Source: an uncultured Porphyromonadaceae bacterium
GTDB lineage: Bacteria > Bacteroidota > Bacteroidia > Bacteroidales > Muribaculaceae
Length of the DNA: 48,353 bases
Assembly: GCA_947175215.1 (NCBI GenBank)
Contig: CAMWLR010000011.1
Location: 1 to 48,353, forward strand
Direction of reading: 5' to 3'
Shown here: positions 7,950 through 46,458 of the stretch, piece after piece
Numbering within the stretch: the first letter of the stretch is position 1
Layout: each line of letters opens with the position of its first letter
Notes under the pieces: generated by a model
What the model was told of the DNA's origin: nothing
What the model saw: only the letters and a program-made list of their open reading frames with translations
The model's database searches: none
Program-made: the position numbers and the translations under genes

Positions 7950-8380
7950 AGACAGCCGGACGGTCCGTCGCTGACGGGTTATTGACAACGCCGTCTGAGG
8001 AAAGTCCGGGCAACACAGAGCGCCATACTTCTTAACGGGAAGCCGCGGGTGACCGTGGAGTAACGTGACAGAAAACAACCGCCCGGCGGCACGTCCGTCA
8101 GGTAAGGGTGAAAAGGCGGGGTAAGAGCCCACCGGGCATCACCGCAAGATGATGTGCCGCACGTCTTATGGGTTGCAAGGTCAAGTAAACCGGCATTTAA
8201 GGGTGGCTCGCCCGTTGCCGGAGGGTAGACTGCTACGGGAGAAGGTAAAGCCATCTCCGATTAGCCGCGATGGTGACATCGGGCATAGATAAATGACGGA
8301 CCGGACGCGGCAGGTCGGTCAGCCTCAGGGTTGGCCGAAACCCACGCTCCGACAGAACCCGGCTTACAGTCCGGCTGCCT
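7950..8380 (+). ncRNA. rnpB: RNase P RNA (bacterial type A)
   Basis: GAGGAAAGTCCGGGC, GTAAGGGTGAAAAGGC, GAAGGTAAAGCC, ATAGATAAATGAC and GACAGAACCCGGCTTAC core motifs. P1 pairs CAGCCGGAC (5') with GTCCGGCTG (3'). Confidence 0.95.
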
Positions 8381-8391
8381 CATCCATACAA

Positions 8392-15699: not shown

Positions 15700-16035
15700 G
15701 TGGATAAATTTGAGAAAAAATATTACAAGATTTCTGAAGTAGCCGATATGATCGGGCTGCCCGCATCGACCCTGCGCTTTTGGGAGAGCCAGTTTACTAT
15801 CATATCACCCCGGCGCAGCCGCACCGGCATCAGGTTCTACACCCCGGCTGACGTCGACAAGATACGCATGGTAGCTTATCTCGTCAAAGAGAAAGGGCTT
15901 AAGATCGAAGCCGCCCAAGAGGCTATCCGCAACAATCATACCGGAGTCTCACGCAAGTCGCAGGCAATCGAACGCCTCCACAACATCCGCGACCGTCTGC
16001 AATTGATGCTCGACTCACTCAACTCATTGCGCTGA
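15700..16035 (+). CDS. MerR family transcriptional regulator
   Basis: YYKISEVADMIGLPASTLRFWESQFTIISPRRSRTGIRFYTPADVDKIRMVAYLVKEKGLKIEAAQEAI; GTG start. Confidence 0.9.
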   Translation: MDKFEKKYYKISEVADMIGLPASTLRFWESQFTIISPRRSRTGIRFYTPADVDKIRMVAYLVKEKGLKIEAAQEAIRNNHTGVSRKSQAIERLHNIRDRLQLMLDSLNSLR

Positions 16036-16068
16036 CATGATAAAACCCATTGCGCTGACATAATAAAG
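16025..16068. repeat. Imperfect tandem duplication (period 23, 19/21 identical) spanning merR stop codon
   Basis: CATTGCGCTGACATGATAAAA (16025-16045) and CATTGCGCTGACATAATAAAG (16048-16068); the merR TGA is at 16033-16035. Confidence 0.9.
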
Positions 16069-16091
16069 GCCCCGACATCGCTGCCGGGGTC
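16068..16091 (-). terminator. Intrinsic terminator of the small minus-strand transcript
   Basis: GGCCCCG...CGGGGTC stem; minus strand continues TTTATTATG. Confidence 0.6.
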
Positions 16092-16112
16092 ACGTGTGTA
16101 TGATGGGCTGAT

Positions 16113-16172
16113 TCAGATTAACGACATACATCCTAATATCAGGGTAGGGAAAATCATCAAGAGTTCACTCAT
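16113..16172 (-). CDS. Candidate 19-aa hydrophobic micropeptide MSELLMIFPTLILGCMSLI
   Basis: ATG...TGA read on minus strand, with two hairpins and a -7-like box (GAACTTTG) upstream and a terminator downstream. Below ORF-caller cutoff. Confidence 0.5.
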   Translation of the reverse strand: MSELLMIFPTLILGCMSLI

Positions 16173-16242
16173 AATTTAAGTTGTTAGTGTTTCTAACAGG
16201 CATCATGTGTAGGCGTGCCACACATTGCTACCGTCATCGTTG

Positions 16243-16288
16243 CAAAGTTCGTTATTCCCGGCGACATTTTTCTCAACAAATGTTGAGA
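16243..16288 (-). promoter_or_regulatory. Operator palindrome (TCTCAACAAATGTTGAGA, 16271-16288) plus -7-like box GAACTTTG (16243-16250, minus)
   Basis: 8+2+8 palindrome 22 bp upstream of the -7 box; same architecture at 27487-27530. Confidence 0.6.
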
Positions 16289-16300
16289 GGTAATAAAAAA

Positions 16301-16864
16301 TCAAGATTTTCGCAATCTGCTCAAATGTGTTGGGGTGATATTGAGATATGACGCTATATCCTTGAGTGAGAACAGCGTGAAAATATCCTCATTTTTCTCG
16401 ATAAGCTCGTCATAACGTTCTTGCGCCGATTTGGTGTGCAGGTTAAGATAACGGTTATAGATCGTGTCAAACAGAGCGAGCGTACTCTCGGCCACTGTTT
16501 TATACAACTCAAGGTCAGCCTCTAACCTCTTACCCAACTCACGTGTAGATACACAATAAATATCACAAGAGGTCACCGCTATGATCGACACACGCGACCG
16601 TCGACCGTAGAGCGAGAAAGGGAAATCGGCGACAAACTCTCCGGCAAACTCCAGCCCGACTACACTCTCAGAACCGTCGGGTGTGTAAGCCACATATTTC
16701 AGCGTGCCTGACTTTATATACCCCAGATAGCGGGCCGTCTCACCTTGCATGGCAAAGAATTCCCCCTTGTCATAATGACGCAACACACCCTGCTCGACAC
16801 ACAACTTCCGCCAAAAATCTCGGTCGATGTTCTCATAATAAGTATTGAAGTTACCGGTGTCCAC
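16301..16864 (-). CDS. Crp/Fnr family transcriptional regulator
   Basis: cNMP-binding fold (HYDKGEFFAMQGETARYLGYIKSGTLKYVAYTPDGSESVVGLEFAGEFVADFPFSL) and C-terminal HTH (FSLKDIASYLNITPTHLSRLRK). Confidence 0.9.
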   Translation of the reverse strand: MDTGNFNTYYENIDRDFWRKLCVEQGVLRHYDKGEFFAMQGETARYLGYIKSGTLKYVAYTPDGSESVVGLEFAGEFVADFPFSLYGRRSRVSIIAVTSCDIYCVSTRELGKRLEADLELYKTVAESTLALFDTIYNRYLNLHTKSAQERYDELIEKNEDIFTLFSLKDIASYLNITPTHLSRLRKS

Positions 16865-16935
16865 GATGTTGACTGTATCAATGTTTACCTGTCGGCCCTG
16901 CAGGTTATTATAATTAAAATGAAACGTGAGCCAAC

Positions 16936-17077
16936 TATGCTACGTCTTAATAGGAGGCCCTGAGAAAACCTTTTGCGCAGATGTAACAATAGTAGCCCAC
17001 GCTATAAGCGTGAGATCAACTATGCTATCCTTGCGCATGAAAAATTTCTCAGGTTTTCCTATTACAAGATAAGCATA
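16936..17077. repeat. Long-armed imperfect inverted-repeat element (~142 nt) with internal hairpin
   Basis: Left arm tatgctacgtcttaataggaggccctgagaaaaccttttgcgca (16936-16979) pairs with right arm tgcgcatgaaaaatttctcaggttttcctattacaagataagcata (17032-17077). Internal hairpin CACGC-tataa-GCGTG at 16998-17012. Confidence 0.8.
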
Positions 17078-17134
17078 CCGCTTCTTTATATCCAGAAAAA
17101 AATGTCACGGAGGGGTTAAACCCCATTCCGTCCG

Positions 17135-17142
17135 CAAAGTTA
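17135..17142 (-). promoter_or_regulatory. -7 box (TAACTTTG), likely crp/fnr-gene promoter
   Basis: TAnnTTTG consensus on minus strand; places the inverted-repeat element in the 5' leader. Confidence 0.5.
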
Positions 17143-25370: not shown

Positions 25371-27461
25371 TTATTTCAGAATTGCCGAGTTAGATGTACC
25401 CGACCCCGAGATCTCATTACCTTGCTGTACTTTCTTGCCGTAGCCGAGAGTATAAGTCACAGAGACGGAGTATCGGGCATGCTGGCGGGTCCCGAATGTC
25501 TTGCGGTCAAAACTGTAATATTCACCGGTGAGATATTCTTTACTCTCCTCCCATGAGGTGTTGCAGAAGTTATAAGCCGAGGCGTTGATTTTCCACGGGC
25601 CTCTACCCCACCCTATCTGCAACTGGTATTGCGAGGGGGTGTGGCTGATGATGCCGCTGTGGGTCTCTTGATATTTGCTCGGGGTCATATACCATCCCCA
25701 GATATAGAAGTCGCCGAAATAATAGGTCAGCTGAGCCGTGCACGTCAGTTCGTTGCTGTTCCAGGCGTAGTCTCCCGAGGTTTTTCTGAGCCAGTATTGC
25801 GGACGCAGCTTGGCCACGAGTTTCGCGCCGAAAAACTTGGCTGTGGCAGAGATGCCCAGGAATCCCGCCGAATAGTCACCACCGTTGAAATATTGGCGGA
25901 GCATCGTTCCCCGCGGCCCGGTGGGTGAATAGAGCGTGACACACCTGTCTTTAGTCAATGCGTAATAACCGTCGGCCGACAATTGCCACTTGTTATCGGG
26001 CAACCATGTATAGGTGACACCGAAATTTGTGTATGTATAATCTTCAAGACCGGGGTTGCCGCGATACCACATCAGTTCATCCTGTTGCAACATATTCGCA
26101 CTTTTTTGCGACGAATCGGGGACATCTTTTCCGTAATTGCCAAATATATAGAGCTGATTTTTCTCGTCAGGCGACCAGGTCGCACTGAGATATGCCTGCG
26201 GGAAGTCGTTACTCATCTTGTTGCCCGAGATATCATTAGTTTCCCATATCCATGCAAGCTGTGCATCAATCACAAGCTTGTCAAAGATGTGGTTATATGA
26301 TCCGCCGACATAATATGCGCCCAGATCATATGTCTGACGTGAGGGGGAGTTGCCGTAATAATTTATGAGGTTGCGGTAATATATCGCTCCACCCGAAAAG
26401 AAAAACCTGTTTGACTGATTGGGATTCCAGTTAAACCTCGGAGAGACCTCAAACCTGTGAGCTCCCTCCACAGCATCGTTCTGAATCAGCAAAGTGCGGG
26501 GGATATCGTATGTCGAATTTGATTTATTATGCCAGTAGGAATACCCTATATTGGCATTCAGCGCGGCCTTATCTGACATTGTGTAATAATATTCCCCCAC
26601 GTATGACAACGACCAATTATGCTGTGACGCTGTGGTCGATGAGTTGGTGACGGTGATTATCTCAGGTGTATACGCCAGGGTTCGCGTCGCGTCATTATGG
26701 GGTATATTGGTCAGGCTGTAAGACAGGCGGTTTGAGAATTGGGTCTTATCTGTGCTATATAGCGCACGGAAACTGAAGTCATTGCTATTGTTGCGATATC
26801 GCGATGACGTCGTGGCGACATCTCTGTTGATCGTCTGCGGCCCCATATCATAAAAGTCGGTAAACTTAAATGTCTCATGGGTGCTTTGGCCCATGTGGCT
26901 GTTAGTGAGATATATCTCATCGGCATAAAGGTCAAACGTCATGCGCTTATAAACCATCTTAGAGTAAACCGACCCCTCGGTGCGGTTTACACCAAACCAT
27001 CTGTTTGCATTGATCTTGGTGTATCCGCCCCACACATATTTGTGCATGACGAAGTTGATGACATACTTCTCGCCCCTGAAACGCGGATCAGTCGGGTGAA
27101 GATAGTACTCGACCTTCTTTACATCCTGAGGGTTCATCCCCTGCAGATCCTGTGCCGTAGCGGGGAGAAAGTCGATAAACACGGCAACATTTTGCCCCTG
27201 AGCTGTCTTGACAGCCTGACTCACGGGGTCGACCTCGATCTGCGGTATCGACATCTGAGACAAGAGGGCGATGGCGTTCTGTGCCGAATTTTTCTGACGC
27301 GCGACCGGGATGTATGTCGACACGTCACCGTTTATCCTTTGATTAGAAGCCTCAACCACGACCTCATCGAGCACCTGCTCGGATATCGAATCAGCCGGTT
27401 CATCGGCATAGGCGCTAATGGACACACAGGCCATTGCCACTGACAGCAGTTTCCTTAACAT
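25371..27461 (-). CDS. TonB-dependent-receptor-like outer-membrane beta-barrel protein
   Basis: Signal peptide, plug-like LDEVVVEASNQRINGDVSTYIPVARQKNSAQNAIALLSQM, long alternating beta-barrel, terminal SVTYTLGYGKKV. Confidence 0.82.
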   Translation of the reverse strand: MLRKLLSVAMACVSISAYADEPADSISEQVLDEVVVEASNQRINGDVSTYIPVARQKNSAQNAIALLSQMSIPQIEVDPVSQAVKTAQGQNVAVFIDFLPATAQDLQGMNPQDVKKVEYYLHPTDPRFRGEKYVINFVMHKYVWGGYTKINANRWFGVNRTEGSVYSKMVYKRMTFDLYADEIYLTNSHMGQSTHETFKFTDFYDMGPQTINRDVATTSSRYRNNSNDFSFRALYSTDKTQFSNRLSYSLTNIPHNDATRTLAYTPEIITVTNSSTTASQHNWSLSYVGEYYYTMSDKAALNANIGYSYWHNKSNSTYDIPRTLLIQNDAVEGAHRFEVSPRFNWNPNQSNRFFFSGGAIYYRNLINYYGNSPSRQTYDLGAYYVGGSYNHIFDKLVIDAQLAWIWETNDISGNKMSNDFPQAYLSATWSPDEKNQLYIFGNYGKDVPDSSQKSANMLQQDELMWYRGNPGLEDYTYTNFGVTYTWLPDNKWQLSADGYYALTKDRCVTLYSPTGPRGTMLRQYFNGGDYSAGFLGISATAKFFGAKLVAKLRPQYWLRKTSGDYAWNSNELTCTAQLTYYFGDFYIWGWYMTPSKYQETHSGIISHTPSQYQLQIGWGRGPWKINASAYNFCNTSWEESKEYLTGEYYSFDRKTFGTRQHARYSVSVTYTLGYGKKVQQGNEISGSGTSNSAILK

Positions 27462-27486: not shown

Positions 27487-27530
27487 CAAAGTTAAGTCAA
27501 TTGTGACAATTTTTTCTCAACATTTGTTGA
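27487..27530 (-). promoter_or_regulatory. OMP gene promoter: palindrome TCAACATTTGTTGA (27517-27530) 22 bp upstream of -7 TAACTTTG (27487-27494, minus)
   Basis: Identical spacing and flank (GAAAAA) to the site at 16243-16288. Confidence 0.65.
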
Positions 27531-27566
27531 TATTGCGAAAAAAGCATGATATGAGGGTACAAAAAA

Positions 27567-45658: not shown

Positions 45659-45828
45659 AGTTACCTAATTTCCAATAATCCAAGTAATTTTTCCCATATA
45701 ATATTCATTAATATTCCACATCATCTCGATTATATTCTTATCTCTATGTTCATCATGCCATAATTTGATCTGTGCCCCCTATAATTACTTTATAATCAGG
45801 TATGTGAGTCGATATGATAAGTTATGCA

Positions 45829-45895
45829 CAAAAAAAATTGATTGTCTCCCGACAACCAATCTTAGTTAACCTTAAATCTAATACCATGAAAAACA
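45829..45895 (-). ncRNA. Candidate small RNA (~65 nt) with its own promoter and terminator
   Basis: Minus strand: TTG (45930-45928) -N19- TACCTTTG (45908-45901), transcript GTGTTTTTCATGGTATTAGATTTAAGGTTAACTAAG followed by ATTGGTTGTC-ggga-GACAATCAAT-TTTTTTT. Confidence 0.75.
45837..45860 (-). terminator. Terminator of small RNA
   Basis: ATTGATTGTC-tccc-GACAACCAAT, minus-strand T-run at 45836-45830. Confidence 0.85.
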
Positions 45896-46104
45896 CGTTG
45901 CAAAGGTAGTGGTATTTCGTGATTCTGCAATAGTTTTGATGCAGAAATTTACTTCGTTTTAACTTTATTTTACACAATTTGGTCAACTTATCGCCAAAAT
46001 TCAATCTTTTTGCTTGCATCTCAGACAACTCTCCGCCACTTTGCCACAGCAGAATCCAAATTAAAAAAGAGATCTCCCACTCCCTTATTAACATTTGTTA
46101 GGTT

Positions 46105-46135: not shown

Positions 46136-46458
46136 TTTCGGAATTCTACGGTTCTGCAAATTCAGAATCTAAGTTCCTGTCAAATAGTGTGGCTTGACCA
46201 CAAAGCGTATTCTTGCTCTATCCACGGTTGCAAAATCGCCAAATATTGTAGACACCGGATATAGCAGTCTTAGATACGCTCATGTTGTATCGTTTCCTGA
46301 CCCTATCGCGGGCCGGGCCGATATAGCGTGGGATCGGACTGCCTTATCGTGTCATGGCATTTGGCGATGCCCGCAACCGGATATGGCAGAAGCCTGTCCT
46401 GCGCTTTCTTTATAATCGCTTTTATCGACGCCGGGGACACGGGGTCAACTATATAATA

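Follow-up and report, generated by a model that had tools for sequence, protein, structure and literature searches.

A short terminated unit beside a Crp-type regulator gene in a Muribaculaceae genome, probably the remnant of a regulator-operator-cargo cassette

Class II promoters of Crp/Fnr-type activators carry a dyad with a 4-nt spacer between its arms, centred near -41, that replaces the upstream promoter element and is served by a regulator with a cNMP-binding domain. Promoters of the primary sigma factor of Bacteroidota (sigma-ABfr) have TAnnTTTG at -7 and TTTG at -33 (PMC7366714), and the intergenic sRNAs of Bacteroides thetaiotaomicron are short and terminated and have a TTTG-type promoter (PMC7366714, PMC10994844). 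Type I toxins, finally, are small hydrophobic peptides. Here, we describe a short unit that shares features with each of these systems and differs from each; it lies in a 48,353-nt stretch of DNA from an uncultured Muribaculaceae bacterium, referred to below as the window.

The dyad geometry, the loss of the upstream promoter element and the cNMP-binding domain are all as in class II promoters, whereas the unit has a Bacteroidota -7 box, its regulator gene is fixed beside an exchangeable target, and activation is predicted. To our knowledge, the operator palindrome is unlike the classic Escherichia coli CRP or FNR sites. As in sigma-ABfr promoters, a TTTG-type -7 box is correctly placed, but it begins GA where most relatives have TA, and the TTTG expected at -33 is absent from that position in the window, where the operator stands instead at about -40. 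In contrast to the B. thetaiotaomicron sRNAs, the unit has neither an Rfam match nor conservation, and its transcript is predicted. The 19-codon open reading frame (ORF) resembles type I toxins in length and hydrophobicity, but it has no homologue and its N-terminus is uncharged.

The unit is located between two convergent genes, a minus-strand gene for a Crp/Fnr-family regulator and a plus-strand gene of MerR type (Table 1). On the minus strand the crp stop codon is followed, in order, by the palindrome, the GAACTTTG box, two hairpins, the 19-codon ORF and a terminator. A sequence check recovered every element that the first-pass annotation had listed from the letters of this DNA, each at the position given there, including the operator with its -7-like box, both hairpins and the ORF, and the intrinsic terminator was also detected independently. 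Beside this terminator, at the MerR stop codon, about 20 bp are duplicated in tandem (CATTGCGCTGACATGATAAA / CATTGCGCTGACATAATAAA; window 16026-16066, plus strand), which may be a trace left when the unit arrived there.

Table 1. Positions of the features discussed in the text, in window coordinates.
Feature	Position	Strand	Remarks
Crp/Fnr-family regulator gene (crp)	16864..16301	minus	cNMP-binding domain, C-terminal HTH-like segment; presumed activator
MerR-type gene	15700..16035	plus	
Operator, perfect 7-4-7 palindrome TCTCAAC-ATTT-GTTGAGA	16288..16271		13 nt past crp stop codon
-7 promoter box GAACTTTG	16250..16243	minus	Bacteroidota consensus TAnnTTTG
Leader hairpin 1	16225..16205	minus	8 bp, loop of 5
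Leader hairpin 2	16198..16182	minus	6 bp, loop of 5
19-codon ORF MSELLMIFPTLILGCMSLI plus stop	16172..16113	minus	not conserved; probably stub at cargo position
Intrinsic terminator hairpin	16091..16068	minus	generic terminator type of the family
Second operator TATCAACAAATGTTGAGA	27532..27515	minus	
-7 box TAACTTTG of second operator	27494..27487	minus	
696-aa outer-membrane protein gene	27461..25374	minus	presumed co-regulated target
Covarying structured RNA, about 175 nt, crp 5' leader	17087..16914	minus	
-7 box TAACTTTG upstream of leader RNA	17142..17135	minus	presumed crp promoter

Is the pairing of operator and -7 box more than a chance arrangement? Homologous crp genes were gathered from the genus, from genome contigs (79 loci) and from 397 genomes of the family, and 43 homologues, that of the window included, were checked for a downstream operator. 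The palindrome follows the crp stop codon in 35 of the 43, usually 5-100 nt away and never by more than about 230 nt; recognisable operators were not found at L044, L046 and L049. At 33 of the 35 loci the TTTG of the -7 box begins exactly 33.5 nt after the operator centre. An operator/-7 match of this quality was reached in 0.7% of shuffled regions, and the pair is clearly beyond chance. DNA similarity between the window and its relatives spans this operator and -7 region (about 16292-16238), other matches having failed scrutiny, and the GAACTTTG variant of the box recurs at three loci (L067, L071 and L092). If TTTG occupies about -7 to -4, the operator is centred near -40.5, the position of a class II activator, and we infer that GAACTTTG and the operator are the promoter on which the product of the adjacent crp acts, putatively as its activator. 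This comparison of loci gives good support to the view of the first-pass annotation that a short terminated unit has a regulated promoter of its own; its further suggestion of a peptide gene or regulatory RNA is not supported, the insert being unconserved in the 397 family genomes and the fetched loci. At L012, L017, L018 and L019, the crp genes are paralogues and have behind them a different, AAAACTTGTTTTA-like palindrome, then a -7 box of the TTTG type and a gene for a secreted protein; the layout of regulator, operator and cargo may be general.

In relatives, the gene that follows the promoter typically starts 22-27 nt past the -7 box and encodes a signal peptide. The identity of this cargo varies between genomes. 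Most often it is an outer-membrane protein of about 695 aa, from either of two groups of 691-698-aa beta-barrel proteins, some with PF14905; elsewhere it is a CarboxypepD_reg/Plug protein, a lipoprotein, a Porph_ging protein or a DUF4377 lipoprotein, or else the promoter is followed by a small secreted ORF and then by a protein of 434-436 aa. Several loci carry little at this position: at L041 no cargo is evident behind the promoter, L067 has a 64-aa ORF as sole cargo, and L119 has a hydrophobic stub of 15 aa, MKIIYILLVALLFLV, ahead of a gene that has a promoter of its own. Directly past the crp promoter of L009/L092, a secreted ORF of the L067 type (64 aa) is split by an insertion of about 220 nt with inverted ends (TTGCTGTCCGGTAAAA...TTTTACCGGACAGCAA); a short target duplication seems to flank the insertion. 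The cargo proteins of L042 and L050 have near-identical signal peptides and only 47% identity overall, while that of L050 is 82% identical to that of L034, a pattern which, judged from these identities, is one of recombination within the cargo gene.

The regulator itself has a cNMP_binding domain (PF00027, E 9.9e-13) and no Pfam HTH match at 0.001, although an HTH-like C-terminal segment, SLKDIASYLNITPTHLSRLRK, is strongly conserved among its homologues. Its closest homologues, with 67-75% identity, are in other genera, compared with only 55-61% for genus-mates, and a homologue at E<=1e-60 is present in only 66 of 397 family genomes. Closer relatives outside the genus together with this patchy presence suggest horizontal movement or old paralogy. 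No relatives of the regulator were found among viral contigs, and no described Crp operator-cargo arrangement was found in the literature searched, whose coverage was partial.

Upstream of crp lies a second structured element, an RNA of about 175 nt. It also precedes crp at six other loci (L006, L009, L010, L049, L071 and L140), and elsewhere it precedes quite different genes, among them genes for secreted proteins, lipoproteins, an outer-membrane protein and a TrkA-like protein. Further copies were recorded at L153-L215, with up to seven per genome. Searches with a covariance model built for this RNA (R1) gave matches in 94 of 119 family genomes, covering 28 of 30 genera, and in 42 of 149 genomes of the order, where the weaker matches of about 60 bits may include other long hairpins. 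In an alignment of 55 distinct sequences, which was fitted to the proposed structure, 97.1% of pair cells are paired and two-sided changes occur at 19 of 45 pairs (185 cells, against 52 in shuffles), with a covariation score of 0.306 against 0.04-0.08 in slid controls. A MAFFT alignment agrees, with double changes at 13 of 45 pairs, and one helix swaps as a block between CCTGAGAAA/TTTCTCAGG and CGTAGGAAA/TTTCCTACG. Nearly all other copies tested have a -7 box upstream, mostly about 40-50 nt away, and an ATG mostly 20-70 nt downstream. This pattern is the signature expected of a cis-regulatory leader, and we regard the RNA as a candidate for a new, riboswitch-like class; it has no match in Rfam 15, and no published account was found in the literature searched, again with partial coverage.

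Other RNAs were recorded in the window as well. A divergent second member of the crp leader RNA family (36.8 bits; 46199-46414, plus strand) lies 44 nt upstream of a gene for an 80-aa HTH_3-like protein (MSDIHIGQLIQQEL...). A few hundred bases from it is an Rfam match to BTncRNA_FopS, a Bacteroides paralogous sRNA family (45828-45896, minus strand), which shows that the family extends to the present lineage. RNase P RNA of bacterial class A is encoded at 7952-8382 (plus strand).

What, then, does the short unit represent? We favour, with moderate confidence, the explanation that it stands in the place of the cargo in a regulator-cargo cassette whose cargo has been lost or relocated, and that the ORF is a functionless stub or a chance ORF. 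The Crp-type protein made from the gene just upstream would bind the palindrome centred at about -40.5 and recruit RNA polymerase to the -7 box, substituting for the missing -33 box. In most relatives the same promoter would turn on the adjoining gene, whose product is secreted or placed in the outer membrane. In the present genome that gene would be gone from its place; the promoter would yield an RNA of about 170 nt ending at the nearby terminator, short because the cargo is gone. Located where the cargo once started, the hydrophobic 19-codon ORF would most likely be a stub without function or an ORF arisen by chance.

The observations behind this proposal are the conservation and rigid spacing of operator and -7 box, with their shuffle statistics, the exchange of cargo between genomes, and an insert for which no homologue of anything between promoter and terminator was found in the 397 family genomes or the fetched loci. 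DNA searches with the unit, first against 61 genomes and later against 397, returned only the operator-promoter of one genome (G008) and elsewhere short or terminator-like matches. The nearly empty positions at L119, L067 and L092 and the signal-peptide-like hydrophobicity of the ORF point the same way. So does a second operator: the assembly, which is 92% complete, yielded a single further operator with a -7 box, at 27532..27487, before the gene for a 696-aa outer-membrane protein homologous to the cargo proteins of 695-698 aa, with 29-34% identity along most of its length; this gene (start 27461) lies about 11 kb from the short unit. Against the proposal, a flawless operator palindrome is unexpected in a relic unless loss of the cargo was recent, and the leader of about 70 nt with two hairpins compares with the usual 22-27 nt. 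Because of this longer leader the unit is not simply a truncated cargo gene. A homology between its terminator and those of cargo genes was considered and withdrawn: the hairpin type recurs after unrelated genes in the family, so the similarity is no proof of descent.

A variant in which the position is still in use is a tentative possibility, well short of probable: the large outer-membrane cargo would have been replaced by a functional micro-cargo, either the 19-aa peptide or the RNA of about 170 nt, that cooperates with the relocated, co-regulated outer-membrane protein in a circuit set by the crp leader RNA.

Could the ORF by itself encode a functional membrane peptide, switched on by the Crp-type regulator together with the outer-membrane protein gene at 27461? 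The shuffle tests of ORF length, hydrophobicity and folding were all selected with the features already in view. Of the dinucleotide shuffles of the unit, 54% contain an ATG ORF of 19 codons or more; chance alone would be expected to give an ORF this long. The almost entirely hydrophobic product noted in the first-pass annotation is nonetheless unusual, as its GRAVY of 1.88 is equalled in 0.15% of shuffles and by only 2 of the window's 360 short ORFs; the mean for the signal-peptide starts of cargo proteins is 1.65. An intact operator and promoter and the 15-aa hydrophobic ORF at the equivalent place in L119 would also fit a working peptide gene. However, the 15-aa and 19-aa ORFs have no evident similarity, no conserved homologue was found in the 397 family genomes or the fetched loci, and a tblastn search of the fetched loci with the low-complexity filter off, of the kind the first-pass annotation had called for, gave a meaningful score only for the window itself. 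The peptide also has no K or R near its N-terminus, which is positively charged in 30 of 31 cargo proteins. We consider a functional peptide unlikely. The uncharged N-terminus and the long leader bear on the emptied cargo position too, since they leave direct descent of the ORF from a cargo start not established.

Equally doubtful is a regulatory sRNA under Crp-type control, in which the two-hairpin leader would be the active part and would tune the co-regulated outer-membrane protein mRNA or other mRNAs. The leader alone (16236-16173) folds better than shuffles (z -3.3), the unit is compact from promoter to terminator, and it has its operator in common with the outer-membrane protein gene. 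On the other hand, the fold of the whole 179-nt unit is ordinary (z -1.23), the unit has no match in Rfam 15, no homologues of the two-hairpin leader were found in 397 family genomes, and pairing with the 5' ends of the outer-membrane protein or crp mRNAs is not above that of shuffles (p 0.29 and 0.40). For an antisense RNA of the type I antitoxin kind, the plus strand offers only weak matches to the promoter consensus. That the unit is merely the 3' untranslated region of crp with its terminator, the separate promoter being unused, is very improbable: crp read-through would indeed stop at 16068, as no terminator lies between crp and the unit, but the conserved operator/-7 geometry serves downstream genes in most relatives.

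In conclusion, the short unit is itself probably a remnant, and it cautions against taking short terminated ORFs for new peptides. The crp leader RNA, frequent in the family and outside Rfam 15, is a better candidate for novelty. What the unit reveals is a cassette in which a Crp-type regulator, a fixed operator and a rigid spacing are kept while the surface protein is swapped among gut Muribaculaceae, and regulator, operator and cargo together form a set that is open to direct testing.
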